From positions 1-20,675 of the IMG/VR virus record IMGVR_UViG_3300009001_000120: 20,675 nucleotides of DNA, one strand, 5' to 3'. A program made the translations under genes and the position numbers. Within the stretch, counting starts at the first letter, position 1. Every line of letters begins with the position of its first letter. The stretch is from a virus. Below, piece by piece: positions 2,088 to 20,436 of this stretch. The notes under the pieces were generated by a model, which was not told the origin of the DNA, did no database searches, and was given only the letters and a program-made list of their open reading frames with translations.

Positions 2088-2279
2088 TTATCCTCCGAAT
2101 ACAATAGACATCGCTATTGCCTTACCCGTTGATGCCGCAGTTGTTGTTACAGTAACAGTATTATTGTTGGGGTCTTTAGTAATTGTGATATTATCGCCTT
2201 CGGTGAGTTCAACCGCACCATCAGAGTCAATATATGCTCCTGCGGCTTTTGCTAATCTAACACTCTTTGACTCAGCCAT
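2088..2279 (-). CDS. 63-aa miniature fibre-N-terminus-like protein
   Basis: The product (MAESKSVRLAKAAGAYIDSDG...) contains the pattern AGAYIDSDGAVELTEGDNIT followed by TVTVTTTA. This closely parallels the first 40 residues of the long fibre at 15031-19071 (AGSYFDSTGKLNLIAGTNVS, then FTISAT). It therefore looks like a stand-alone copy of a fibre attachment or cap segment. The C-terminus (AMSIVFGG) resembles that of the 62-aa protein at 12454-12642 (YSLIFGE), and both genes directly precede a MANPN gene. The ATG overlaps the portal stop codon as TAATG, and GGTGAG in the portal gene's end can act as ribosome site. The role is unknown; an adaptor or tip subunit for the downstream adhesin is possible. 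Confidence 0.8.
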   Translation of the reverse strand: MAESKSVRLAKAAGAYIDSDGAVELTEGDNITITKDPNNNTVTVTTTAASTGKAIAMSIVFGG

Positions 2280-3805
2280 TACTGCTCACCCTGTTGTTGA
2301 TCTTGTTGTTCCGGTTCCATAATATCACCGGCTTTCTTTTCAGCTTCAATTTCCTCTTTCATTTTCTCAATATCATCATCAGACATCATGAGAACATTCT
2401 TATATATGTACTCTTTTGAGAAGAACTCACCAACATAATTTTGCATTTGATCCATCATCTGAACACGTTCTCTAAGCATCTCTGCATCACGTAGTTCAGT
2501 GAAATGATTATCGCGAACATAATCAACTACAATATCTTGTTCCCATTCTTTCCAATCTTCATCGGTAATAATACCTTTAAGAATTAATTGCTTTTTAAGA
2601 ATACCAAGGAACAAGTGAGAGAATCTTCTACGCAATCTATCAATAAACTTTTGGAATTTAAGTTCATCTCTGGAAACTTCTGTTGATCTACCAAGACTAA
2701 ATTGAGCTTCTTGCTCTAGCCTATTAATAGGTACATTCAGTGAACGATAAAGTTTCTTTTGGAAATAAATGATATCATCAATTTGTCCAAGATTCTCACC
2801 GCCAGGTAGCGTGGTAATCTCTGTGCCACGACCACCTTCTCTACGTGGTAGCCAAAAATCTTCAAGCATTGACATATGCTTACGGTCATCACGAATCTCA
2901 CCGGTCTGAGCATCATAGACAAGTTTATTACGATACTTGGCCATGATATCTTTCATATATTGCTCGGCCTTACCACGTGGTAGGTTACCAACATCAATAT
3001 AGAAAATACGACGTTCTGGTGCTCTGGCCAATCTATAAATGACCAAAGAATCTTCCATCATTCGCAATTGGTTGATGGGCTTTAATGCTTTATGTAGGTA
3101 TGAAACAACCTTCTTACGGCTTTCATCTAAAAGACCAGACGTAATATAACTCACCGAATCATTTGTGAGCTTTACACCACCAGTTTGTGAACCAGGCTTT
3201 TCTTGATAGATGTAAAACTCTTCAACGTTCTCAATAAGTTCAACACCTGTTTGCTGATCTTTTTTCTTTTTAATTTGTTTTACTTTACGAATCTTAGAAG
3301 CATCAATAGGTCTAATCTCTTGGATGCCCGCTTTTAATTGTGATTCGTTGACTACAAGATGGTGATACAATCTACCATCAATATACCATCTACGGAAAAT
3401 ATCGTGACCATACTCACCAAACTGGAGCATGTTGTACACATTATCGAATTCTTCTTTAATTTGCTTTTTAATTGCGTCAGTAATTTCAAGATTATCTAAA
3501 TTAATATCTACGTTTTGTTTAAGTTCTGACGTTGAAACAGACTCATTTGTAATATCTTCAATTGCCATATCAACTTCAGGTTGAGTAGCAACTCCACGAT
3601 ATTGCATGATAAGTTGATGGTTATCTTTTGAATCATTACCTTCAAAGTTAAGATACTGACCAAAGTACATGTTACCAGCTGTAACATATCCAGCACCATC
3701 ATCGTCTCTGGCAGGAACAATGGACGGCTTCTTTTTAGGGTCGTCCTCTACAGCACGCTTAATCTCAAAACCAAATAATTTAATGCTTCTATTATTTTCT
3801 GCCAT
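2279..3805 (-). CDS. gp20: Portal vertex protein of head (T4 gp20 family)
   Basis: This 508-aa protein is close in length to T4 gp20 (524 aa). The portal forms the dodecameric ring at the unique head vertex through which DNA is packaged and ejected, and it nucleates head assembly. Family features include a low-complexity N-terminus, then YQLIMQYR-type segments (HQLIMQYRGVATQPEVDMAI), DDPKKKP near the start, and the conserved core with RIFYIDVGNLPRGKAEQYMK, LEDFWLPRREGGRGTEITTL and SLNVPINRLEQEAQFSLGRS. The C-terminus is charged and glutamine-rich (MEPEQQDQQQGEQ). It lies just after tail tube gp19, as in T4. The start ATG 3803-3805 has an upstream AGGA. A GC-rich hairpin sits in the 54-base gap before it. 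The next gene overlaps its stop by one base. Confidence 0.97.
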   Translation of the reverse strand: MAENNRSIKLFGFEIKRAVEDDPKKKPSIVPARDDDGAGYVTAGNMYFGQYLNFEGNDSKDNHQLIMQYRGVATQPEVDMAIEDITNESVSTSELKQNVDINLDNLEITDAIKKQIKEEFDNVYNMLQFGEYGHDIFRRWYIDGRLYHHLVVNESQLKAGIQEIRPIDASKIRKVKQIKKKKDQQTGVELIENVEEFYIYQEKPGSQTGGVKLTNDSVSYITSGLLDESRKKVVSYLHKALKPINQLRMMEDSLVIYRLARAPERRIFYIDVGNLPRGKAEQYMKDIMAKYRNKLVYDAQTGEIRDDRKHMSMLEDFWLPRREGGRGTEITTLPGGENLGQIDDIIYFQKKLYRSLNVPINRLEQEAQFSLGRSTEVSRDELKFQKFIDRLRRRFSHLFLGILKKQLILKGIITDEDWKEWEQDIVVDYVRDNHFTELRDAEMLRERVQMMDQMQNYVGEFFSKEYIYKNVLMMSDDDIEKMKEEIEAEKKAGDIMEPEQQDQQQGEQ

Positions 3806-3859: not shown

Positions 3860-4399
3860 TTAAGATGTAGTAGCGACAGGATCTGTAGCTTCAAAGTATT
3901 GGTATGCAAACGTGACCTGGAATCTTTCGATTTCATCTGTTGTTGCATAGCTCAGATCAATTGCCGAAAGGTCAGTCGGGAAAGAACCTCTAAAGACATA
4001 TTTCTTAACCGATTCACCTGAACGATCAAGTTGCTCAATAAACAAATCAGCTTCGTAGGCAATGGGACTTGCCAAACCTGTGTTTTGCGAATGAGCATTG
4101 ATACCGTTCATCCATCTTTCAAATGAGTTACGAACCGTAAAGTCTGTATCATTGATGATGGTAACTGTCCATTCTGGGAATGTACGGTCACCAGCCAATT
4201 TCAAGATACGACCACGGAAAGGAACATTAATAATACCAAACGTGGAACCGGGCAACTGAGCTGCTTCGCACAAGAACGAAGTCAATTCAGCATCGCCATT
4301 GGCGTAACCCGGAAAGTTGATGGTCGCCTTAAATAAATTAGGTCTAGCGCCACCACCTCTGAGTTTGGCTTTAAAATCATCTACGCCTAAAACTGCCAT
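3860..4399 (-). CDS. gp19: Tail tube protein (T4 gp19 family)
   Basis: This 179-aa protein (T4 gp19 is 163 aa) polymerises into the hexameric rings of the inner tail tube through which DNA passes. Family features: an N-terminal MAVLGVDDFKAKLRGGGARP, then NLFKATINFPG, LCEAAQLPGSTFG, the strand pair VPFRGRILKLAGDRTFPEWT, VTIINDTDFTVRNSFERWMN, and a C-terminal FQVTFAYQYFEA. The gene lies between sheath gp18 and portal gp20, as in T4. The ATG at 4397-4399 has a good GGAG ribosome site about 7 bases upstream, in the 23-base gap after gp18. No promoter is visible in that gap, so it is probably co-transcribed with gp18. Confidence 0.97.
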   Translation of the reverse strand: MAVLGVDDFKAKLRGGGARPNLFKATINFPGYANGDAELTSFLCEAAQLPGSTFGIINVPFRGRILKLAGDRTFPEWTVTIINDTDFTVRNSFERWMNGINAHSQNTGLASPIAYEADLFIEQLDRSGESVKKYVFRGSFPTDLSAIDLSYATTDEIERFQVTFAYQYFEATDPVATTS

Positions 4400-4422: not shown

Positions 4423-6228
4423 TTAAACTGTGCCGACGACTTCTTCGAAGTCAACGCCAGTTCTGACGGCCACGAAGTTCAGTGTGACGTAGTTGATTGA
4501 CCGAGCAGGTTTAATGAAGATACTTGCAATAAACTCGTTACGATCAATGACTTCAGGTGTGTTATTGGTTTCATCTGCAACAACACGGAAGTCGGTAATA
4601 CCACGTCTACCTTGAATTTCACGGAGGACCGGCTCGACAATGTTGACGAACTCGGCACGTGTAAATTCATCGTTGAACTCGAACAATACTTGTTCAGCGG
4701 CTCTACCAATTGCTCTCTCAAGGATGAGGAACAATCTACGGACGTTAATTCTATCAAAGGCAGAAGGATAGCCTAAGAAAGTTTTATCGCCAAAGAGCAA
4801 TACGCCTTGACCAGGGATGTTTGCAATGGGGTTTACACCAGCCTTATACAGAGTATCTCTCTGACCTTTGGTTGGGCTATATGCCAAAGCAGTAACGCCT
4901 AGTAGTTGACCTCTTCTGGAACCAGCAGGTGAGAACCAAGGTGCCCGGTTATAATCCGTAGCAGCCATGATACCAGCTGTGGTCGAGGCAGCAGGAATAT
5001 TAACATATTTGTCGTTATACTTGTCATAAACCTTTAGGTAGTTGTTATCAACAACCAAGTACGAGGACTTGGTATAACCACTAACGGTTGTGACAGTATT
5101 GGAAACTCTTGTTGCATCATTGGATGTACCAAGAACTGCTTCACTGTTAGGCGAAGCAACAACGACACAATCTTTACGAGTAGATTGAGCAGTTGAAACA
5201 AGATCATTAACCACGGTTCTTTGATTTGTGGCAGAAGCAAGGCCTGGAGCGATAATGAAATCAACTTCAACTTGGTCTTTATCTTCAAATAAATCATAAC
5301 CTGTCAGGTATTCAGATGTTGTAAGTGTAGCTGAGTTAGCACCACCAGCCAAACTAAACGATTCAGCATCACGATCGGCCGAATCTAAGAAATAGCTTGT
5401 GCTCAATGAAGAGGCTGAACCAGCAGACTTAGCAACTTGAGCTGAATCAAAGTTCAACATCCAAATATATTCGGATTTGTTATTGACAACTTCTTTAGCA
5501 TAAATGCTTGTGCCTTCTGTATTCTTGGCATCTGTAAGGATAGACATATTGGGGAATGTTTCCAGAATTGTACCGCGGGTACCTGTAAACAAACCATCTT
5601 CGTCAACAACAACCAAGTGCATTTCGTCACCAGACGAACCTTTGCCAGAAGCAAAAGTAGACGTTTCAGGACGAGCATCAAAGCTAGAAGCATATGCCCA
5701 TGAATCAAACTTAGTGCTAGTTGTATCAGCTGGGATATAAGAAACTTTAAGTGAGTTACCAAGTGCGCCAGGATAACGAGCAACAAATTGAGTTTTGTAT
5801 GTCGTAGCAGATCCATCACTATCCGTTTCGGCAACCAGAGTAGCTTCTCTTGTGTCAAAGTCGGTAGAGTTTAGAATCAGTGGGTTATCCCAACCAGCAA
5901 CATCATCAGCACTATCAACGGAAAATCCACTTTGATATGCCAATGCGCTCTGTGCGGCATCGGTAATCTCGCGCACAACTTGAAGTGTGCTAGAATATCT
6001 GAGATATTGTGAAGCTGTGAGAAAATCTACAGCGTTATCATCTGTCGGTGTAGCGAACGTAGCAGCAAGTTCTGCCTCATTGGCAATTAATCTTCTTTGC
6101 TGTACAGGACCCCACCGAAAATTACCTACAATTGCGCCAGTGGTTGATTGAACGTTGGGTACGCCGCCGGTCAGATCAATCTCTTTAACTACAACCGCAG
6201 GAGACTCGGAAGGTGTAAAAAGTGCCAT
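4423..6228 (-). CDS. gp18: Contractile tail sheath protein (T4 gp18 family)
   Basis: This 601-aa protein (T4 gp18 is 659 aa) forms the contractile sheath around the tail tube. The N-terminus has the family signature: SPAVVVKEIDLTGGVPNVQS, TGAIVGNFRWGPV, then ASQYLRYSSTLQVVREI. The middle, about residues 100-350, is Ser/Thr/Ala/Asp-rich and corresponds to the surface-exposed variable domains. The C-terminal core is conserved: APWFSPAGSRRGQLLGVTAL, GVNPIANIPGQGVLLFGDKT, FDRINVRRLFLILERAI, FEFNDEFTRAEFVNIVEP, and the final IKPARSINYVTLNFVAVRTG. The ATG at 6226-6228 has an AAGGA site 8 bases upstream. A TATAAATA late-promoter element lies at 6291-6298, so the sheath gene probably starts its own late transcript, as expected for a highly abundant protein. 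Confidence 0.98.
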   Translation of the reverse strand: MALFTPSESPAVVVKEIDLTGGVPNVQSTTGAIVGNFRWGPVQQRRLIANEAELAATFATPTDDNAVDFLTASQYLRYSSTLQVVREITDAAQSALAYQSGFSVDSADDVAGWDNPLILNSTDFDTREATLVAETDSDGSATTYKTQFVARYPGALGNSLKVSYIPADTTSTKFDSWAYASSFDARPETSTFASGKGSSGDEMHLVVVDEDGLFTGTRGTILETFPNMSILTDAKNTEGTSIYAKEVVNNKSEYIWMLNFDSAQVAKSAGSASSLSTSYFLDSADRDAESFSLAGGANSATLTTSEYLTGYDLFEDKDQVEVDFIIAPGLASATNQRTVVNDLVSTAQSTRKDCVVVASPNSEAVLGTSNDATRVSNTVTTVSGYTKSSYLVVDNNYLKVYDKYNDKYVNIPAASTTAGIMAATDYNRAPWFSPAGSRRGQLLGVTALAYSPTKGQRDTLYKAGVNPIANIPGQGVLLFGDKTFLGYPSAFDRINVRRLFLILERAIGRAAEQVLFEFNDEFTRAEFVNIVEPVLREIQGRRGITDFRVVADETNNTPEVIDRNEFIASIFIKPARSINYVTLNFVAVRTGVDFEEVVGTV

Positions 6229-6301: not shown

Positions 6302-7894
6302 TTACAAATTTGGGTCATACTCTACGGCCCAATCTGTAGCACCTGGTCTTTCTATCGTAGCAATGTGTTGGCTTCCATCGTCAATAAATCCAAAAGGAAC
6401 TATATCTTCTTCGATCTCTTTCATTCTTTGATCAAATAACATCTGCTTTAAATCAATGTTTGTCATATCAGAAAAGTATTGAGTTGAGACAAAATAACCA
6501 AACATTACTAGGTTCATCATCAAATCATCGTGGTTACCATCACTTGCCTCATACGATTGACCCCTTGCTTCGAACGTAGAGATCTCAAGAATCGTGTTCT
6601 CATCTACAATATCCAATTTACTATTCTCTAAAATATCTTTAATTGCAGAACAACCAAGGCGTTTTACTTTACGCGTCATCTCTACACCTAAAGCATTTGC
6701 TTTTACTGTCGATTCAACATGCATGTTTTCATATTCAAGTTCGTGATATAAACCATTACACACTACTCCTCCTTGATCATTTGATTCAATCACCACATAA
6801 GCATCATTGTAGAGTTTCGCATACTTATAGATAATGTTAGGGAAGAGAATTGGAGAGATAGTATTGTTGCGATAAACAGCAACCTGCCTGAAAGGGCGAA
6901 CGCTAATATCGATCACGTTAAACGTAGAATAATCCTGCCCTCTCCCTTTACTTACGTCTACAGTCATAATGTAGTCGTGTTTTCTGATAGTGTCTTCGTA
7001 GACATAAAGACTATTATTCTCTAGCAGCCTTTTATATGGCTTTGCTCTAAACGCCATCAGCGTATCGGCGTTAATCAGAGTGTCGCCTGTTCCGAAAAAA
7101 GTATTGCCAAATTCTTGGTCAAATTGTAATTGACTAGTATTGGCAATTGTTTGTTTTTTCCACGCTTCATCTCTTCCTGGAACGTCAAACCAGTCAACAC
7201 GAAACGGTTTGAACTCGTTCACTCCTTGCACAGCACCTTCCCATATCTTATGATACGTATTGCCGATACCGTTTGCGGTAGAAGTGACAATTACCTTTGT
7301 GTCTTTACCTGCGGCAATTACAGGATACGTTGAAGTGTAGAACTCAGTGGCACGTTCAACAAATGCAAACTCATCAAGGTATAGTAAGTTTACCGACAGG
7401 CCACGAATGGATGAACCAGATGTAGCTCTGGCAAGAATACGTGAATTATTTGAGAATTCAATTGAACCTTTATTTAATGCTTTACAACCAGGTTGCAAAA
7501 AGAATGGTAGGTTCTCAAGCATGAGCGTAACACGACTTAACATCTCACGTGCTGTATCACCTTTGTTTGCAAGGATTACTACAAGTTTTTCTGAGTGAAA
7601 CAGTGCGTACCAAAGTAAGTATGCACAAGAGGATATTGACTTACCCGATTGTCGGCAAGCAAGCACGACGTTAAACCTGTTCGAATTAAAGTGCTCAAAC
7701 ATGTTCTTTTGATATGGGTAAAGTGTAAAGGGTACTAATCCCTTATCAAGGGAAATGACCTTTAGATATTTCTCTGCAAAGTACGCAGGGTTGTGCATAC
7801 ACTTAGAGTACTCAAGAACTTGTTCCTGAGTCCATTGTTGTATTACACCGTCTCTCTTTACATTGTTATTACCTAAGTAGGTATCAGTTTGCAT
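6302..7894 (-). CDS. gp17: Terminase large subunit (T4 gp17 family)
   Basis: This 530-aa packaging motor and nuclease (T4 gp17 is 610 aa) docks on the portal, translocates DNA with ATP, and cuts concatemers. ATPase domain: the variant Walker A ACRQSGKS at residues 79-86 (T4-like RQxGKT/S), Walker B LLYLDE with D174/E175, and coupling motif VIVTSTANG at 201-209. The RNase-H-like nuclease domain carries TVDVSKGRGQDYS (D313), YVVIESNDQGG (E370) and HDDLMMNLV (D456/D457), which match the three acidic metal-binding positions of gp17. All motifs are intact, so the enzyme should be active. The start overlaps the upstream small gene by 11 bases; the AGAGG is directly against the ATG, so translation probably relies on coupling. 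A late promoter for gp18 follows its stop. Confidence 0.98.
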   Translation of the reverse strand: MQTDTYLGNNNVKRDGVIQQWTQEQVLEYSKCMHNPAYFAEKYLKVISLDKGLVPFTLYPYQKNMFEHFNSNRFNVVLACRQSGKSISSCAYLLWYALFHSEKLVVILANKGDTAREMLSRVTLMLENLPFFLQPGCKALNKGSIEFSNNSRILARATSGSSIRGLSVNLLYLDEFAFVERATEFYTSTYPVIAAGKDTKVIVTSTANGIGNTYHKIWEGAVQGVNEFKPFRVDWFDVPGRDEAWKKQTIANTSQLQFDQEFGNTFFGTGDTLINADTLMAFRAKPYKRLLENNSLYVYEDTIRKHDYIMTVDVSKGRGQDYSTFNVIDISVRPFRQVAVYRNNTISPILFPNIIYKYAKLYNDAYVVIESNDQGGVVCNGLYHELEYENMHVESTVKANALGVEMTRKVKRLGCSAIKDILENSKLDIVDENTILEISTFEARGQSYEASDGNHDDLMMNLVMFGYFVSTQYFSDMTNIDLKQMLFDQRMKEIEEDIVPFGFIDDGSQHIATIERPGATDWAVEYDPNL

Positions 7895-11029: not shown

Positions 11030-11422
11030 TTATTGTGATTGAATATGATTAACAATAGTATCTAGATTATAACTGCTTGTTAGTTGTAGATCACAATCGG
11101 CTTTTAAATATTCTTTATCATCAAAATCTACATCTAGCCATAAACCTATAACATTGTCTATAGCTCCTCTCCAGCCTTGAAGCTGCTCAATGGTATCGAT
11201 GATAGAAGATCCACCCGTAGTAAAAAATACTATGTTCGTTCCATCACTTAACGCGTTTTTTATAACATTAAGAACTTGAGGAAAACCTTCAGCCTCAGTG
11301 TTACCAGTCAGATTTCTTACATCAGACTCATTGTATTGCTTAGCCGATAAAGCGGTCTTTAAGGAAGCAACCAATGTGTCTTGATAGTTGTTTGACGATC
11401 CAAAAATTAGTATATTAGTCAT
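11030..11422 (-). CDS. Uncharacterised alpha/beta (Rossmann-like) protein
   Basis: This 130-aa protein is unlike its beta-rich adhesin neighbours. It starts with a hydrophobic strand and a glycine/serine loop (MTNILIFGSSNNYQD), followed by a helix (TLVASLKTALSAKQ). Further strand-helix units follow: FPQVLNVIKNALSD, TNIVFFTTGGSSIIDTIEQL, and NVIGLWLDVDFDD. This is the pattern of a flavodoxin- or Rossmann-like three-layer fold. There is no Walker A lysine, no signal peptide and no membrane helix, and I cannot assign a function. The start overlaps the stop of the discoidin-like gene as TAATG, so the two are probably co-translated. It is the last gene of the adhesin block before the gp13 promoter. 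A role in adhesin folding or modification is only a guess. Confidence 0.8.
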   Translation of the reverse strand: MTNILIFGSSNNYQDTLVASLKTALSAKQYNESDVRNLTGNTEAEGFPQVLNVIKNALSDGTNIVFFTTGGSSIIDTIEQLQGWRGAIDNVIGLWLDVDFDDKEYLKADCDLQLTSSYNLDTIVNHIQSQ

Positions 11423-12096
11423 TATCCTGCATACACCTCTATTTCATTTAAAGTGACTCCGTAAGAAGCGTTCCTAGTCAATGTAAATCTTACATACGGA
11501 TAAGTCTGTAAATTTACCGGTGGGTCAAAAATATGAATATAATCTGTTCCATAGTTTGTGGATGTATCACTTGTTTCTGAAATGACCCCATCTGTATCAG
11601 ATAGATTAAGCCACGTGCTATTATCTGCACTGTACTGCATTGTCCAGTTAGAAGATGCATCAGTCCTTGTTCGTGGATATACAACCATTTTATCCATTCT
11701 TACTAGTGTAGTCGAACTAAAATCAAATGTTAGTGTCTGATCTCCTGTGCTATTTGTAAGCCAATAAGTAGTAGTTGCGTTCGAACCGTTGCTGCCATCA
11801 AATAGATATTCTATAAAATATGCGGAGGGGTTGCTATAGCTATTTGCACTAGATGTAATAACTAAACCATCTTCTGGGTAACTTGTTCTTGATACCGTCC
11901 ATTGATTGCCAGCCTGGCCCCCACCTGTACCATTACTCAGATCTAATAATACAGCCTCGACAACGCTGGGATATGCTTGATTTAAAACATCTCTATAAAC
12001 CTGGTATAAGCTCTGTATACCAGAAGCACCGTTTGTATTTCCAGATGCGTTGGTTACAATCTTTCCAACTATGCCGACGTCACCTCTACGTCCCAT
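11422..12096 (-). CDS. Discoidin-like (F5/8 type C) adhesin
   Basis: This 224-aa protein has a short N-terminal part (MGRRGDVGIVGKIVTNASGN, then YQVYRDVLNQAYPSV) and a C-terminal domain, about residues 65-224, with the look of an F5/8 type C / discoidin galactose-binding jelly roll. Visible elements are AYFIEYLFDGSNGSNATTTY, then LTFDFSSTTLVRMDKMVVYP, then NWTMQYSADNSTWLNLSD, and finally YPYVRFTLTRNASYG followed by TLNEIEVYAG. Such domains usually bind sugars on surfaces, so host-glycan binding on the virion is a reasonable inference. It starts directly after the MANPN protein's stop, and its GRRG start resembles the large adhesin at 1-1727, which occupies the same place in the other cassette copy. 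Confidence 0.85.
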   Translation of the reverse strand: MGRRGDVGIVGKIVTNASGNTNGASGIQSLYQVYRDVLNQAYPSVVEAVLLDLSNGTGGGQAGNQWTVSRTSYPEDGLVITSSANSYSNPSAYFIEYLFDGSNGSNATTTYWLTNSTGDQTLTFDFSSTTLVRMDKMVVYPRTRTDASSNWTMQYSADNSTWLNLSDTDGVISETSDTSTNYGTDYIHIFDPPVNLQTYPYVRFTLTRNASYGVTLNEIEVYAG

Positions 12097-12450
12097 TTAA
12101 CTAATCTCCTCATATGAGCAGACAGCTTCCAAATCACCATCAACACTGGCTGTCAATCTAAGAGTGTCGCCTTCCTCGAGATAAACATCTTTTGTAATAA
12201 TGTCAAGTGTAGCATCAGCTGGAATTGTAATTGTTTTAGCTAAATGATAAGCTGTGCTACTACGGTATACATCTGCATTAACTGTAGCATCGTTAGTACC
12301 ATCAACGTTGGATATGTATAACGCTTTTACGCGTATAAGTTTACCGCTTGCTGCAGAATTAGTAACAATGGCGGTTGCAGACGTTGTGATTGCTTGAACA
12401 GCCGTCTTACCGCTCACTGTTGTTATACTCAATAAATTGGGGTTAGCCAT
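12097..12450 (-). CDS. Small MANPN-family beta-rich protein, copy 2
   Basis: This 117-aa paralogue of the protein at 1727-2086 shares MANPN, GKTAVQ, SATAIV, ISNVDGT, YRSSTAYH, YLEEGD, RLTAS and the C-terminal AVCSYEEIS. The protein is beta-rich, without a recognisable catalytic motif, signal peptide or membrane segment. The ribosome site GGAGAG is formed by the last codons of the preceding 62-aa gene (FGE), the same arrangement as in the other cassette. Its TAA is followed immediately by the ATG of the discoidin-like adhesin. The conserved position immediately before a GRRG-adhesin suggests a partner role, such as anchor, collar or chaperone, but this is inference. Confidence 0.85.
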   Translation of the reverse strand: MANPNLLSITTVSGKTAVQAITTSATAIVTNSAASGKLIRVKALYISNVDGTNDATVNADVYRSSTAYHLAKTITIPADATLDIITKDVYLEEGDTLRLTASVDGDLEAVCSYEEIS

Positions 12451-13149: not shown

Positions 13150-15018
13150 CTATGTGCCTGAAACCGTAAATTGTGTGAGTCTTCCCGACCTATAATCTCT
13201 TACATAAAATCTTTCAGCTGTGTCATCAATAGAAAATCCTATGTGAAGTGGCGCTTCAACACTGGGTAATGGTAAACCACCACTAAAATTCAGATTGAAA
13301 GAACCATCATATGAACCCGATGTAAGGTCCCATGCAGTTGATAGAGTAAATTGTTCAACTTCTGGGTATGATCTCTTAAACAACCACACTTTTGTCCCAT
13401 CCGGATTAAAAAGACCTCCAACCAAATAATTACTAGAAGTATTCATTGGGAGTGATTGACTAGAATTATATGATGCGGTTGATAGATCCCATGCTGTAGA
13501 CAAATCAGCCCTATAAAGCTCTCTTTTTGAATAGGTGGTATAATATAATTTAGTGCCAGAATCACCAAAAAACATTCCAGGAAAAGAACTTATTCCAGTT
13601 GGAGCATAAGAAACACTATCATAAGAAAGTGTGGTAATATCCCAAGCAGTTGACAACGAGTATTGATAAACGGTTTTATTTACGTGGCCTAGTAGATACA
13701 TTTTGGTGCCATCATCTTTAAAGGATAAAGAGGTTGGTGAGCCTTCTTGAGCACCTACATATACATTTCCAACCCAATTTGCCCCGGTTGAGCCTGAAAC
13801 TATTTCATAAGGTTCATCTAATGTGAACTGCATAATCCAATCATAATTTGTAGTCACATAAAGTTTTGTTCCGCTATCACCAACAAAACTAGCGCCAAAT
13901 GCGGTAGCATTTTGTTCAGCAGTTGATGTTCCTCCAGCACCTGGCCTGATTGGCCCCCAACTTCTATGTACCATTTCTATGGCTGGTACATTTAAACCAT
14001 CCATTGATGTGTCATATATTGTGCCAACAAAATTTTTACCATTTGCATTGTCACAGGTTGTCCTAAATGGAGAAATTCCCCATGGATATGTTGTAGTGGT
14101 TGTTCCAATTGCAAAGATATTAAATTGTGTGCCTTCTGCCATAGTGACACCGGATGATAAATCATCCGGGTCTGAAACGGTCACTTTAAATGCTGATCCG
14201 GAAGCGGATTGTGTTGTAGAATGAAGTAATAATTCTGTGCCGGTACTATTTGCAATTGTTGTCATACCAGTAGCGATCGCTGCAGCATTAAGCCATTCTA
14301 CTCTGGCTGTGGCCGCGCCGTCATATTGGTAATCGTCCAAATCATAAGCAGTACCACCTGAAATTAATCTATAAACATAAAGATAATTGTCGCCCGCGCC
14401 AGTAGCATAATAAATGTATTGTCCGTTATTTGCAAAAGTTAAATTTCCACTTGACCATGTCGTTGGTGCATTAGTGCTGGTGCCACTATTTTGCGCTGCA
14501 AAAGCAGTTGGGGTTTTTGTTACAACATGAGTTAATGTTGAACTTAAATCCCAAGCAGTGCTTAATGTAAAATGAATAAAATTATCATTATTATTTACAT
14601 ATAAATTTGTTCCATCATGACACCAAAAACCATAATAATCAGTAGTTGTACCGGTACCAAATGAAACTCTATCTGTCCACGTTATTGTAGATAAATCCCA
14701 TGCAGTAGACATGGTACCACCATAAAAATAAAAATCATCACCATCAATCCAAAAGAATTTCAGTCCATCGGATTTAAATGCCCATTGACTCGCACCAAAC
14801 ATAGACTGGGAGCTGGGATAAGCACCAAATGCAGTGTATATATCGCCTCTAATAGAAGTTGCATAATTAGTAGAATTAGTCAAACTTCTGGGATTAAAAG
14901 TTATGGCATAATCTCCACGGTCAGATGCTTCAGCATAATTATAAAAATCACCGGCATTGGGGTTTACTGCATCACCACCAACACCTGCCGCTGCTTGTAC
15001 TATATCTCTTGAACTCAT
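13150..15018 (-). CDS. Virion protein with STAWD repeats, likely beta-propeller receptor binder
   Basis: This 622-aa protein begins MSSRDIVQAAAGVGGD. It contains five clear copies of the motif (L/M)STAWD(L/I) at about residues 104, 153, 456, 507 and 560, plus degenerate versions near 222 (GGTAYDLDDYQYD) and 399 (TLDEPYEIVS). Each motif follows a phrase such as DSGTKLYxTT or DGTKMYLLG and a short strand ending in QFTL or QYSL. The ~50-residue spacing within each cluster and the strand pattern suggest the blades of a beta-propeller. A receptor-binding or fibre-associated role is inferred from fold and location. The ATG at 15016-15018 is preceded by GGTGGTG. It lies 12 bases after the long fibre and probably belongs to the same transcript. 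Confidence 0.85.
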   Translation of the reverse strand: MSSRDIVQAAAGVGGDAVNPNAGDFYNYAEASDRGDYAITFNPRSLTNSTNYATSIRGDIYTAFGAYPSSQSMFGASQWAFKSDGLKFFWIDGDDFYFYGGTMSTAWDLSTITWTDRVSFGTGTTTDYYGFWCHDGTNLYVNNNDNFIHFTLSTAWDLSSTLTHVVTKTPTAFAAQNSGTSTNAPTTWSSGNLTFANNGQYIYYATGAGDNYLYVYRLISGGTAYDLDDYQYDGAATARVEWLNAAAIATGMTTIANSTGTELLLHSTTQSASGSAFKVTVSDPDDLSSGVTMAEGTQFNIFAIGTTTTTYPWGISPFRTTCDNANGKNFVGTIYDTSMDGLNVPAIEMVHRSWGPIRPGAGGTSTAEQNATAFGASFVGDSGTKLYVTTNYDWIMQFTLDEPYEIVSGSTGANWVGNVYVGAQEGSPTSLSFKDDGTKMYLLGHVNKTVYQYSLSTAWDITTLSYDSVSYAPTGISSFPGMFFGDSGTKLYYTTYSKRELYRADLSTAWDLSTASYNSSQSLPMNTSSNYLVGGLFNPDGTKVWLFKRSYPEVEQFTLSTAWDLTSGSYDGSFNLNFSGGLPLPSVEAPLHIGFSIDDTAERFYVRDYRSGRLTQFTVSGT

Positions 15019-15030
15019 TTCACACCACCA

Positions 15031-18000
15031 TTATGCAACTGCTTGGGCCAATACTAAACCTCTCCATGTTGTACCGCCATCTCTTGTAAAGAAGCCAAGA
15101 ATATCCAAACCGGATGTGGTAAGAGTAGGTGCAGTTGCTGCCGCCCATGTTACACCAGAGAACCAGTTAACTGTAGCCGAACCACCATTTGTCAGTTCAA
15201 GAATAAACGAACTGACATTACCTGAAGAAGCTACATTACTAACTGTAAATGTAGTTGTACCGGAAATTGTTTTACTAAAGTAATTAGCAGTACTTAGATC
15301 AATATCCGATGCACCGATTGCACTATATGTTTCAACGACAGCACCGATTGTAATGTCGTTATTCGCCAGTAGTGCAAGAGTATGTACCGAATCCAAGAAA
15401 TCAGCAGTGCTGTATGTTGTTTGATTGCTTTGAATATAACTAGCATTAATCACACCAGTAACGGTTGTGCTATCCAGGTAATTAGCATCATTAGTAAATT
15501 CACTTACATTGGAATAAGTCGTTTGATTAGCTTGGATATATGCCGCATTAATAACGCCTTGAACTGTTGTTGAATCCAGGTAGTTTGCATCATTGGTAAA
15601 TGTACTAATAGGTAATGCAGTAGCAAGAGAAATTGCCGTAGCCGAGTCAATACCATTATCACCAATAAACTCTGAAATTGAGATATAATCATTGCTATCT
15701 GCAGCAGATACAAGTGTAATTGATGTACCATTTGTTGCTGTATAATCATCACTATCTTTTAGCAATACACCATTTCTAAACACCATGATTTTACCTGGTG
15801 TGTAGGTACGTGCAAATACTGTTTGACCAAATACAGCAGATGAGTCTGTAACATCAATACCTAGTCTACCGGAGATTGATTGATAACCACCGAAGGCAGA
15901 GATGGAAATTACGTCAGCACTATCAGCACCAAATGTAAGTGTTACTGTATTTGAACTTGCCGTATAGTCATCGGTAGATAACAATACACCATTTCTAAAT
16001 ACTTGTATTAGGCCAGATGATGCAAATGTAAGGGTAGCACCATTTACATCAGTACCACTAAAGATGGTATCGCCACTATCAGCTTCATAAGTATATGTGG
16101 TAACACCTAAAGTACCTACAGTAGTAGAACCACCAGCAGATTGTCTTGCTTGAACATAAGCTGAATCAATTAGATCTATAACAAGTGCTGAATCAAGACC
16201 ACCGCCGCTGCTTTGTGCAACCCAATCATAATCACTACCAGTCCAACTTAGTACTTCACCAGCTCCTGCTGTACCAGTATTTAAATGATTATCAATAACA
16301 TCTAGAACAGTAGTACTATCTAGTGTTCCACTACCACCACCGGAAATACTTAGATCACCACTTCCAAGAAGTGAATTGCCATTTACTGTCTTGATATTTG
16401 TGCCAGAGACTAGTAGTGCTTGAACGGTTGAACCAATGGCTGATGTTATTGCAGTATTAGCAAGAGTTGTTGCACCAGCAGAATCCGGAAAATCAGCAGT
16501 ACTATATGTAATTTGATTTGCCTGAATATAACTTGCATCAATAACATTCTGAACTGTCGTGCTGTCAAGATAATTGGCATCATTAGTAAATTCAGATACG
16601 TTCGTATATGTCGTCTGATTTGCCTGAATATACGTTGCGTCAATGACACCAGTAACAGTCGAGGAATCAAGGAATGAATTTTCGTTGAAGATTACAATAT
16701 CTCCAACCATTCCAGAGTGTACTGTACATTGATAGACCAATGAATTAGGTGCATTCATTGGCACTGTAAAGATTACATCACCAACTTGAGCTCCGTTATT
16801 GGTTACACCGTCACTATATGCTGAACCACCATCTGACAATCTGATTTGGAATGGATGGCTAGATGCGTTAACACTAAACTTATATGTCTTACCTCTTGCA
16901 AGATATAGTGTAGGATTATCTACAGTTGATGGGAATCCATCACCACTAAATGTATAGGCGGATGAGCCATTATTAACAACACCAAAAATTGTCTCTGCTG
17001 GTCTTCTTGCTTCAATATATGCAGAATCAATTACAGGTATAGATATCGAATCAAACGATAGTGTACCTTCACCATTTGTTTTTAAGAATTGACCTGTAGT
17101 ACCATCACTTGTTGGAAACTTATAGGCATTGTTAAATGTAATAGCACCACTATCATTACCATCAATCTTAAATTGCACATCGTCATTTGAACTGGCTTCA
17201 ACTGATGTACCGTCTGTGGTAACTGCAACGGTAAACTGTGTTCTGTTGGCATTATTGGTGTTGTCAAAAGCAAACTGTCCACCGACAATAAGTGCTGAAC
17301 CATTGTAGAATTCGTGGTTACTTCTAAATAGATAATCACCTGATTGTATAGCACTTGGTGAGGAAATTGTACCTCTGTATCTTCTTGTTCTTACATCTGG
17401 AGCGTCAGCACTATTATTGTACTGTTCCATACGGATCTGTGCTGTTTGAGCACCTTCACCTGTCATATGTAGTGTTACTTCAGGTGAAGTTTGGTTAATA
17501 CCTAGATAGTTACTAGCAGGGTCCACCGACAGTGTCGTATCTTGTATTAAATTATTACTGTCGCCCACAATCACAAAAGCGTTTTGTGTGGTTAAGTTAT
17601 CAGCACGTAGGCTATTACCTGTGAGATTTCCAGTGACTGTTAATTCTGAAAGTGATGCAGAATCTCCAGTAGAGATATAATTGGCATCATTAGTAAATTC
17701 AGATACATTCGTATATGTAGTTTGATTTGCTTGGATATATGTGGCATCTACAACATCTAGAACAGTAGTACTATCTAAATAATTTGCTGAATTAACAAAT
17801 GATATATCAATCTCGTTGCCACCGGCATCAGTGATGATTCGAATACCGTTATTACCTACTAGATTGAGAGTATCATTAGCATTATCAGCAGTAACTGTAG
17901 TTTGGCCAGTTATTGCAATATTACCAAATGCATTTGCCTCGTTGGCTGTAATAACTGATACGGCTGTAGTACTATCCAAATAGTTAGCATCATTTGTAAA

Positions 18001-19071
18001 TGTACTAACCGGCAAGGACTGGACCCAATCAGAGTCAGCCATACCATTAATTAATTTTACAAGAGAACTATAGGCTTGTGAATCATTATTAAGAGCATTA
18101 GCAATTTCTTCAAGCGTGTCTAATGTACCAGGCGCACTTCCGATTAGATTATTAATTTGTGTTGTAACGTATGCAGAGTCTACAAAATCACTTGTGTTGT
18201 AAGTAATTTGCCTAGCTTGTACATACGCAGCATCTACAACATTTTCAACGGTTGTAGAATCTAGAAAATCTGATGTATTATAGGTCGTTTGTCTGGCCTG
18301 AACATATGCTGCGTCAACATGCCCTTGAACCAAAGTACCGGCATTTGCTTCATGCCAAATTGTGTATTCACCAGTTGAAGTACCAATGCTATCAGTTCCG
18401 GTATCAACGGAGGTTGCAAGAAGAAATTTTAATCCGTTAGAATCCTTTGCTTGAAAAATAATTTGATCTTCAGCATCAGATCCAATACCAATTACAAGTT
18501 TGGCATTTTGCTGATTACCAGAATTATATGCTGGTGATCCTACATTATCGGTATCATCAACACTACGTGGGTGATATTGAATAAATGCTACATCTTTATT
18601 TGTAGCGCCACCGTGGCCAAATAAAATACCTGATCTATACCGCGCGCTATCTTCACTATATCCATTTGGTATATAATTTGGGTCATAATTGTTATTATGG
18701 AGCCATAGTGAAATACCATCTTTTCTAAAATAACCTTGATTTTGAGCAGATGATAAATTTAACGCCGATGTAGGAATTGTGCTACCAACAATTAAACCTT
18801 TACGGGTGTTCAATGTATCAATTGATTCTATTTTAATTTCTACATAAGAAGAATCAATAACATCAGTTACAGTCGAAGAATCTAAATAATTGGCATCATT
18901 TATAAATTCAGAAACATTAGTATATGTGGTATTTGTATCAGTAGCAGAGATAGTAAAAGACGAATCAGTAGAACTAATTGATACGTTCGTGCCAGCAATT
19001 AGATTCAACTTACCTGTTGAATCAAAATATGAACCGGCATTTGATAAGTCTAAATTTCTTCTCTTAGTCAT
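15031..19071 (-). CDS. Long tail fibre with repeat shaft and embedded cupredoxin-like domain
   Basis: This is a 1346-aa fibre. I chose ATG 19069-19071 (MTKRRNLDLSNAG) over a TTG 12 bases upstream because a GGA site lies 7 bases before it. The N-terminal segment resembles the 63-aa mini-protein. More than ten shaft units (NDANYLDSTTV, VIDATYIQANQ, VDAAYVQARQ, TYNTSDFLDS) link globular domains: residues ~60-220, a region with LGINQTSPEVTLHMTG (~500-680), a cupredoxin-like domain (~693-797), a tandem pair with VFRNGVLL (V1024 and V1097), and a C-terminal domain (DGGTTWRGLVLAQAVA) shared with the partial fibre gene upstream. It is probably a trimeric host-recognition fibre. The late promoter at 19096-19103 lies 25 bases before the ATG, so it likely heads the transcript of the adhesin block. 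Confidence 0.93.
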   Translation of the reverse strand: MTKRRNLDLSNAGSYFDSTGKLNLIAGTNVSISSTDSSFTISATDTNTTYTNVSEFINDANYLDSSTVTDVIDSSYVEIKIESIDTLNTRKGLIVGSTIPTSALNLSSAQNQGYFRKDGISLWLHNNNYDPNYIPNGYSEDSARYRSGILFGHGGATNKDVAFIQYHPRSVDDTDNVGSPAYNSGNQQNAKLVIGIGSDAEDQIIFQAKDSNGLKFLLATSVDTGTDSIGTSTGEYTIWHEANAGTLVQGHVDAAYVQARQTTYNTSDFLDSTTVENVVDAAYVQARQITYNTSDFVDSAYVTTQINNLIGSAPGTLDTLEEIANALNNDSQAYSSLVKLINGMADSDWVQSLPVSTFTNDANYLDSTTAVSVITANEANAFGNIAITGQTTVTADNANDTLNLVGNNGIRIITDAGGNEIDISFVNSANYLDSTTVLDVVDATYIQANQTTYTNVSEFTNDANYISTGDSASLSELTVTGNLTGNSLRADNLTTQNAFVIVGDSNNLIQDTTLSVDPASNYLGINQTSPEVTLHMTGEGAQTAQIRMEQYNNSADAPDVRTRRYRGTISSPSAIQSGDYLFRSNHEFYNGSALIVGGQFAFDNTNNANRTQFTVAVTTDGTSVEASSNDDVQFKIDGNDSGAITFNNAYKFPTSDGTTGQFLKTNGEGTLSFDSISIPVIDSAYIEARRPAETIFGVVNNGSSAYTFSGDGFPSTVDNPTLYLARGKTYKFSVNASSHPFQIRLSDGGSAYSDGVTNNGAQVGDVIFTVPMNAPNSLVYQCTVHSGMVGDIVIFNENSFLDSSTVTGVIDATYIQANQTTYTNVSEFTNDANYLDSTTVQNVIDASYIQANQITYSTADFPDSAGATTLANTAITSAIGSTVQALLVSGTNIKTVNGNSLLGSGDLSISGGGSGTLDSTTVLDVIDNHLNTGTAGAGEVLSWTGSDYDWVAQSSGGGLDSALVIDLIDSAYVQARQSAGGSTTVGTLGVTTYTYEADSGDTIFSGTDVNGATLTFASSGLIQVFRNGVLLSTDDYTASSNTVTLTFGADSADVISISAFGGYQSISGRLGIDVTDSSAVFGQTVFARTYTPGKIMVFRNGVLLKDSDDYTATNGTSITLVSAADSNDYISISEFIGDNGIDSATAISLATALPISTFTNDANYLDSTTVQGVINAAYIQANQTTYSNVSEFTNDANYLDSTTVTGVINASYIQSNQTTYSTADFLDSVHTLALLANNDITIGAVVETYSAIGASDIDLSTANYFSKTISGTTTFTVSNVASSGNVSSFILELTNGGSATVNWFSGVTWAAATAPTLTTSGLDILGFFTRDGGTTWRGLVLAQAVA
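15655..16110 (-). repeat. Tandem duplicated VFRNGVLL domain in the fibre
   Basis: Two consecutive ~73-residue domains share VFRNGVLL, then DDYTA, then ADS(N/A)D and ISIS(E/A)F. Their VFRNGVLL valines are residues 1024 and 1097 of the fibre. The motif is common in phage fibre proteins, so this is an internal domain duplication. Confidence 0.75.
16570..16599 (-). repeat. 30-base perfect direct repeat, copy A (fibre shaft)
   Basis: Identical over 30 bases to 17677-17706; it encodes the shaft motif VSEFTNDANY and flanking bases. Similar but imperfect copies occur near 15480 and 18886. Confidence 0.85.
16681..16997 (-). other. Cupredoxin-like domain with complete type-1 copper ligand set
   Basis: Fibre residues ~693-797 read like a cupredoxin: a strand ending in LARGKTYKFSVNASSHPFQI and a C-terminal LVYQCTVHSGMVGDIVIF. 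Candidate ligands are H739 (in SSHPF), C782, H785 and M788. The CxxHxxM spacing is that of amicyanin, and the 43-residue distance from the first His to the Cys is within the range seen in plastocyanin and amicyanin. Copper binding itself is inference. Confidence 0.75.
17677..17706 (-). repeat. 30-base perfect direct repeat, copy B (fibre shaft)
   Basis: Matches 16570-16599 base for base, about 1.1 kb away inside the same gene. It is part of the shaft repeat family and long enough to support homologous recombination. Confidence 0.85.
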
Positions 19072-19095
19072 CGATGATTCCAAATAATTCTTTAC

Positions 19096-19116: not shown

Positions 19117-20436
19117 TTAAACATTAGGTTTCCACTTAAAAACTACGACATTCATATGTGTTGTGGTTTTATAAGTATAATGAACTAAATATTCATCATT
19201 AGAAGCCCAAGAACCTTGATATGTTACATCACTATCAGCTTGTAATGTTTGCAGTAAACCGCCGGTAGCAAAATCGTAAATATAAATGTGGTCGTCGGTA
19301 TCGGTCCCCTGTTCATTTGCTGAAATTAAAGCTTGTGTACCATTTTTAATTGCAGTAGTTCTTTGACCGAATCTATCTAAATATTGACCGGACCCAGCTG
19401 CTGCTGGGCTTTGGAATCTATAAGCCAAACTACCATCAGATGCATTAAACGCATAAACTTTACCAATTTGGTCAGTACCATCGGTAGAATCCTCATAAAC
19501 GGCAGATACTGCAAAATAATCTGGACCAACAGCATCACGGTTGTAGTTACCATCGGCAAAAAATTCACTTTTACCAGAACCAGCTAATCTGTCGGCCACC
19601 GGTTGTGTCACTTTACCGAGATAAGTACCATTTTCCACATCAAATCTTAAAACAACACCGTTGTTATAATCTTCGTTATTTACACCAGCAACTGAGGCAG
19701 CTGAATCTGCTGGTAAATGTGCGGAATAAGCATAAACAATACCGTCATACATATTAAGTGTCGCACTGCCGCCGGCGCCATATATCCAAAGAGGAGTATT
19801 TTCCAATGCACTTCTAGATAAACCAGGTATTAATGGTGCTACGACATCACCATAAAATATTTCCCGTATTTCATTAAAATTTGAATCATATACATGCAAA
19901 CAACCTTTATATGATAAACCGTCATATGATGATGTATAAGGTTTTAGTGAGGTAATTACCAGGTAATTTCCATCTGTAGCAATCCCACCTCCAAAGGATC
20001 CCGCTGAGGCATCAGAATCATCTAATGATTTAACCGAAGTTAGATTGCTATCAAGCACATGGACCATACCAGTACCACCAACATCGCCCACGCTTCTAAT
20101 ATGTTCTGATATTACATAAAGACCTTTGAATTTTACAAATTGATAACCATAAAACTTACCACCATAAGGTGATACCCCATCAGACATATTTTTAAATGTA
20201 TCACCATTTATTGAAATAGCAATAGCCTTATCTGCACTGCCGTCACTTATTAAAATTTCATTATCTGCTGTAAGTGTAAAATCATCTGCGTTTTGGGCCA
20301 GCGATGAAGCATTTGGTGACGGTGAATCCCAAACTGTATTTACTAAACTAAATCTAGATTCTATCTGCCAGGAATATGGTATGGCAGATAAACCTACTAT
20401 TGGATTAATATTAGATAAACTAGTGAGACGTGGCAT
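19117..20436 (-). CDS. Beta-propeller (FG-GAP/PQQ-like) virion protein
   Basis: This 439-aa protein (MPRLTSLSNINPIVGL...) appears built from about seven similar strand-rich units. The clearest are GKVYAFNASDGSLAYRFQSP followed by YLDRFGQRTTAIKNGTQALI, HIYIYDFATGGLLQTLQ, GVVLRFDVENGTYLGKVTQP, GCLHVYDSNFNEIREI, and GTGMVHVLDSN. The G-x-(V/L)-x-x-(Y/F)-D...G pattern is typical of FG-GAP_2- or PQQ-like beta-propellers. No signal peptide or catalytic motif is visible. In this position, between two fibre genes, a receptor-binding or fibre-associated structural role is likely but inferred. It starts 3 bases after the stop of the upstream fibre gene, so the two are probably co-transcribed. The start ATG is 20434-20436; GGATAA just before it is a weak ribosome site. 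Confidence 0.8.
   Translation of the reverse strand: MPRLTSLSNINPIVGLSAIPYSWQIESRFSLVNTVWDSPSPNASSLAQNADDFTLTADNEILISDGSADKAIAISINGDTFKNMSDGVSPYGGKFYGYQFVKFKGLYVISEHIRSVGDVGGTGMVHVLDSNLTSVKSLDDSDASAGSFGGGIATDGNYLVITSLKPYTSSYDGLSYKGCLHVYDSNFNEIREIFYGDVVAPLIPGLSRSALENTPLWIYGAGGSATLNMYDGIVYAYSAHLPADSAASVAGVNNEDYNNGVVLRFDVENGTYLGKVTQPVADRLAGSGKSEFFADGNYNRDAVGPDYFAVSAVYEDSTDGTDQIGKVYAFNASDGSLAYRFQSPAAAGSGQYLDRFGQRTTAIKNGTQALISANEQGTDTDDHIYIYDFATGGLLQTLQADSDVTYQGSWASNDEYLVHYTYKTTTHMNVVVFKWKPNV

Follow-up and report, generated by a model that had tools for sequence, protein, structure and literature searches.

A cupredoxin-fold domain with an intact type-1 ligand set in a phage tail fibre and its relatives among marine phages

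Tail fibres and the baseplate sockets that hold them are usually viewed as protein-only or iron-binding structures. The locus described here raises the question of whether a phage fibre can also carry the fold and ligand set of a copper protein. The window (the whole stretch of DNA that was analysed, 20,675 nucleotides of IMG/VR record IMGVR_UViG_3300009001_000120) is a T4-like structural block with genes for the portal (2279-3805), tail tube (3860-4399), tail sheath (4423-6228) and large terminase (6302-7894), followed by the sheath stabiliser, head closure and head-tail adaptor and then by fibre-type genes. One of the latter matches PHROG families of the baseplate wedge tail fibre connector (phrog_677, E 9.5e-27) and of tail fibres (phrog_9017, E 3.1e-9; phrog_18185, E 2.3e-6), and an alternative TTG start at 19083 would lengthen its product by four residues to 1350 aa. 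The features discussed below, with residues numbered from the ATG, are:

15031-19071, minus strand: tail fibre gene, open reading frame from ATG (MTKRR...), 1346 aa
16675-16998, minus strand: cupredoxin-fold domain, fibre residues 692-799, from AlphaFold2, Foldseek and hhalign
16855-16857, minus strand: H739, the His of HPFQI, predicted as the N-terminal His ligand and modelled immediately ahead of strand 5; kept in 51/59 non-redundant copies and matched in the alignment to the ligand His of the bacterial cupredoxins
16726-16728, minus strand: C782, predicted as the Cys ligand, where the penultimate strand ends; kept in 51/59 copies and aligned with the cupredoxin Cys
16717-16719, minus strand: H785, predicted C-terminal His ligand; kept in 51/59 copies and aligned with the cupredoxin His
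16708-16710, minus strand: M788, predicted axial Met ligand (C-x2-H-x2-M); kept in 55/59 copies, including copies that lack the Cys and both His
16513-16674, minus strand: fibre repeat/linker segment directly after the cupredoxin domain, residues 800-853, with repeat motif positions FLDSSTV..YIQANQ..NYLDSTTV..YIQANQ

The domain thus lies in the middle of the 1346-aa fibre, flanked by repeat segments. HPFQI starts at H739, and YQCTVHSGM supplies C782, H785 and M788. C782 is the single cysteine of the fibre, and CxxHxxM occurs once across all six frames of the window. The original prediction had named exactly these four residues, had pointed to the C-x2-H-x2-M spacing of amicyanin, at which M788 does stand, and had placed the domain at 16681-16997, within a few bases of the limits found here. 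Comparison with the nearest relative (88% identical) gave 33 synonymous and 13 non-synonymous codon differences, with the ligand residues identical.

For the fold, we gave AlphaFold2 an alignment of 34 sequences, comprising the window domain and its relatives; residue 1 of the model is fibre residue 692. The model has eight strands, a mean pLDDT of 94.3 and a pTM of 0.87, and its best 50 Foldseek matches in the PDB all belong to the cupredoxin superfamily (probability 1.00). These include a three-domain nitrite reductase (1.1e-4), two amicyanin entries (9.2e-4 and 1.3e-3), rusticyanin, AcoP, pseudoazurin, plastocyanin, laccase, ceruloplasmin and CuA-type or quinol oxidase subunits. Against solved cupredoxins, TM-scores reach only moderate values (0.44-0.63 over the query), and we therefore regard the domain as a divergent cupredoxin. 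The earlier reading that the surrounding strands fit a cupredoxin fold, for which a confident model lacking that fold had been named as counter-evidence, is thus borne out by a confident model that does show it. In the model, H739 (residue 48) stands just ahead of strand 50-53, C782 (residue 91) is the last residue of the penultimate strand 86-91, and H785 and M788 (residues 94 and 97) lie in the loop preceding the last strand, 98-104. As modelled, the order of the four residues and their places in the secondary structure are those of a type-1 copper arrangement. Among predicted viral structures (BFVD), the best fold match is the P-SSM2 tail spike PSSM2_298 (1.6e-13). The same search also matched small 'beta-sandwich proteins' of Pithovirus and Marseillevirus metagenomic genomes (1e-5 to 1e-6), and cupredoxin-like proteins may therefore exist in giant viruses.

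Sequence comparison points the same way at the level of profiles. We aligned, with hhalign, a profile of 50 intact copies of the domain against bacterial proteins found by Pfam PF00127 (plastocyanin/pseudoazurin-type), which gave a probability of 94.7%, an E-value of 6.1e-8 and a score of 46.2, with scores of at most 13.4 for 30 column-shuffled controls. In this alignment, H739, C782 and H785 coincide with the known copper ligands of the bacterial proteins. The search against cupredoxin families that had been suggested for the domain hence succeeds as a profile comparison and fails for the window domain taken by itself, which has no Pfam match, falls below the PF00127 (Copper-bind) gathering cut-off of 21.2 bits and does not match the NCBIfam amicyanin model TIGR02657, against which a bacterial relative also scores only 14.8 bits (cut-off 110.2). 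Because it lies below the PF00127 cut-off, we class the domain by its cupredoxin fold and leave it outside PF00127. Within the P-SSM2 tail spike, the second copy does pass Copper-bind (23.3 against 21.2 bits), and since one member passes, automated databases probably flag single members of the family as Copper-bind. In the PDB, phmmer with the domain returned weak matches only (pseudoazurin, E 0.54) and a profile hmmsearch returned nothing below 0.1, so that sequence search knows of no solved structure of this domain family. We also considered PF25489 (At5g54830-like) as the family: some relatives match it (best 3.9e-5), but their full-protein scores are below the cut-off, and the literature on PF25489 was uninformative.

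If the four residues form a metal site, they should be kept or lost together. Our first alignment showed strict conservation of YSDGVTNN, which we discarded as a selection effect, as the collection scans had selected for that peptide. Because of this bias we recounted ligand conservation with independently fetched phage records, using 59 non-redundant copies (below 80% identity). The full His-Cys-His-Met set (HCHM) is present in 50 of the 59, and the ligand columns rank among the most conserved of the domain (M788 first, H739 fifth, C782 sixth and H785 seventh). Across 5,896 residues of the family, 51 of 52 cysteines fall in the ligand column. Nine copies have an incomplete set: four poorly aligned paralogues and five well-aligned copies, which read QSGM, YAQM, YCQM, FAVM and NGTM. 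Both His are absent from all five of the latter and the Cys from four. By parsimony this amounts to three changes on the tree, although the tree is too weak to support more than one. Homologues without conserved ligands had been named as evidence against the original prediction; we find that the ligands are conserved and that the broken copies lose both His together. Like the fold and the ligand set, the conservation and the near-all-or-none loss are computed observations, and such loss is what a metal site predicts. The Met is kept where the other three are lost, so its conservation is partly structural, with a packing role as well. Some phage copies work without the site, which means that not every copy needs the metal.

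The domain is not confined to this fibre. With tblastn we found it in 360 of 50,697 phage records, nearly all of them Synechococcus or Prochlorococcus phages, and it is present in 74 IMG/VR loci; a plasmid collection gave no match. It matches the C-terminal part of phrog_677 (positions 304-410 of 412) at E 2.4e-37, which, with the ligands among the top conserved columns, is far above chance. Very often it forms the C-terminal domain of gp9 in cyanophages, a baseplate protein that holds the long tail fibre: in P-SSM7, ACG-2014g and P-TIM68, gp9 consists of the T4 gp9/10 N-terminal domain (PF07880) followed by the cupredoxin domain. By Pfam, PF07880 is absent from the window fibre. Other carriers are tail spikes (P-SSM2), a podovirus structural-region protein (P-GSP1, Autographiviridae) and a T7-like fibre; the virion context of the domain is thus known by homology. 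The mention in the original prediction of YxC-x2-H-x2-M segments in marine T4-like phages proved correct, most of these being gp9 C-terminal domains. Its surprise at a metal-binding type of fold in a fibre was justified as to the presence of the fold and less so as to its being peculiar to this fibre, since it is rather a widespread virion domain of marine phages. One further protein (locus L058, 2652-9485, plus strand) holds three copies, two with HCHM and one broken (QSGM). The nearest fully sequenced phage is C48C1 (Kyanoviridae), whose large terminase shares 74% identity with that of the window (about 47% for cyanophages) and which shares its gene order. The C48C1 fibre gene at the matching place has no similarity to the window fibre at E 1e-5 and no domain-profile match, and genome-wide the sole domain-like match is weak and at another place (E 2.4e-9). 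The absence of the domain from this fibre despite the same gene order indicates an exchangeable fibre module.

Set beside known systems, the fold and the site are familiar, whereas their setting is new and widespread. The fold is that of the small blue copper proteins which serve photosynthesis and respiration. Like amicyanin, pseudoazurin and plastocyanin (PF00127), the window domain has the cupredoxin fold with a His before a strand, C-x2-H ending the penultimate strand and a Met after it, and with amicyanin it has the C-x2-H-x2-M spacing in common. Those proteins, however, are free soluble electron carriers, whereas the window domain is a module inside a fibre, and it has HPF at the first ligand His in place of their usual His-Asn. 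The third copper motif of laccases likewise begins with HPF. Among phage proteins, gp9 of phrog_677 shares a homologous C-terminal domain, with four identical ligands in the copies read, but is about 410 aa long in several cyanophages and has the T4 gp9/10 N-terminal domain, whereas in the window the domain sits within a long, repeat-rich fibre. PSSM2_298, annotated as a tail spike or proximal tail fibre, differs from the window fibre in having two HCHM cupredoxin copies and a C-terminal Peptidase_S74 intramolecular chaperone domain. Among published ideas, the closest is that of iron-binding HxH tail fibres in T4 gp37, Alteromonas phage R22Y and marine phages, known as the Ferrojan or Trojan horse hypothesis (PMC11705849). 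These likewise have metal-binding residues in a phage fibre in a marine setting, but the iron is held in octahedral His cages on the trimer axis, with no cupredoxin fold and no Cys or Met, and the two differ in both chemistry and structure. We also considered the domain as an auxiliary photosynthesis plastocyanin and ruled this out, since in cyanophages petE is a gene of its own, 324-369 bases long (PMC3037559). Among the open papers searched, we found none that ties cupredoxins to phage tails, and papers on cupredoxin together with cyanophage or tail fibre were unrelated.

Outside phages, the same HCHM domain occurs in secreted bacterial proteins of Methylotenera, Flavobacterium and genome G355, which are up to 50% identical to the domain but are cellular, stand-alone or CHRD-joined, and are not virion proteins. 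Examples are a 149-aa Methylotenera lipoprotein and a Flavobacterium CHRD-domain protein, each with HCHM. The domain is rare in the bacterial genomes sampled: 9 of 198 carry it in the phylum to which the Flavobacterium genome belongs, and 2 of 200 in the phylum of the Methylotenera genome. Phages may plausibly have captured it from secreted proteins of the host type. G355 itself (L146, 915-2034, minus strand) encodes a tandem pair of small exported proteins, each with an HCHM cupredoxin domain. A few Bacteroidota copies (L143/L144, genome G116) read C-x2-H-x3-M in place of C-x2-H-x2-M; changes in ligand-loop length are typical of cupredoxins.

On the basis of fold and ligand set, we consider it likely that the domain binds copper. 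For its role we lean, with some reserve, towards residues 692-799 being an autonomous cupredoxin-fold domain whose intact type-1 ligand set makes it a copper-stabilised, rigid docking or spacer module. Each chain of a trimeric fibre would fold the domain as one lobe, and its thiolate/His/His/Met pocket would acquire a copper ion after lysis, in the lysate or in seawater. The bound metal would lock the loop between the last two strands, which would yield a stable, rigid module. The gp9 copies could serve as the model, as the C-terminal position in cyanophage gp9 would put the domain where the long tail fibre attaches. In this picture the copper occupancy, the geometry of the trimer and the part played in stabilisation or docking are inferred.

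How far does this reading hold against others? That the resemblance arose by chance, with His, Cys and Met accidentally placed on an Ig-like beta-sandwich, might be suggested by the missing Pfam match of the window domain and the weak single-sequence PDB matches, but it is refuted at the level of the analyses used by Foldseek, by hhalign with its shuffled controls, by the family-wide ligand conservation and by a family member above the Copper-bind cut-off; we give it almost no credence. A purely structural bead, in which the ligands bind another metal (zinc or iron) or the virion domain is apo with relic residues, could account for the persistence of copies without the site (QSGM, FAVM, NGTM, YAQM) and for a Met retained whatever the state of the site. 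Judged by sequence, zinc may take the place of copper. Yet 50 of 59 divergent copies retain the site, and relic residues would decay singly, whereas YCQM is the sole partial break; the joint loss of both His puts His, Cys and His under shared constraint, and we hold the bead to be unlikely.

The remaining two readings give the metal an active part. By analogy with the iron hypothesis, a copper-carrying fibre might serve host attachment, with the metal or the metal-end surface contacting a host surface protein or copper-uptake receptor. The domain does sit in fibres, tail spikes and gp9, metal-binding fibres are already published for iron (PMC11705849), and the marine bias of the matches fits a trace-metal theme; its commonest place, however, is gp9, at the joint of fibre and baseplate rather than at the tip, it lies mid-fibre in the window, no receptor is known, and it is spread across phages of different hosts, all of which makes attachment distinctly improbable. 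Still less probable is a redox role in which the site would cycle between Cu(I) and Cu(II), for example in oxidant detoxification or the passage of electrons at the cell surface. Electron transfer is what a full type-1 ligand set normally serves, and the cellular relatives are secreted proteins or lipoproteins, but we recognised no redox partner domain or enzyme in the window, the domain is found in several unrelated virion proteins, and a free phage has no electron donor. Copper-dependent adsorption and redox use are thus possible but unsupported, and we retain the copper-stabilised docking or spacer module as our working interpretation.

Since relatives of the domain occur in the tail-fibre and fibre-attachment proteins of hundreds of sequenced ocean phage genomes, copper may be present in many phage particles of the ocean. 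An intact-site cupredoxin in hundreds of marine phage records suggests copper as a possible virion cofactor, brings copper, alongside iron, into the discussion of trace metals carried by phages, and allows 'hypothetical' and 'gp9' annotations to be replaced by a fold and a site. The metal content of purified cyanophage offers a direct test. It is a doubtful further step that T4-like marine virions would as a rule contain type-1 (blue) copper centres, with as many as one on each gp9 subunit (18 by T4 stoichiometry) in addition to those of the fibres, and that fibre deployment or adsorption would be copper-dependent. If true, phages would be a pool of copper-binding ligands in seawater and copper a determinant of infection.

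Several other genes of the window, all on the minus strand, deserve mention. Two small paralogues of 125 and 117 aa (1727-2104 and 12097-12450; 59.7% identity, E 7e-50), without a Pfam family, lie about 10 kb apart and flank the portal-to-adaptor block. Adjoining the portal gene, 3-1727 encodes a protein with a TIG domain, two putative Ig domains (He_PIG) and a concanavalin A-like lectin domain (Laminin_G_3). Among the fibre genes, 11422-12096 encodes a protein with an F5/8 type C (discoidin) carbohydrate-binding domain. Two large fibre-region proteins (13150-15018 and 19117-20436) have no PHROG or Pfam match, and the former contains repeated TKLYxxxxxxxxVxQFTLSTAWDL-like units that are suggestive of a beta-propeller.
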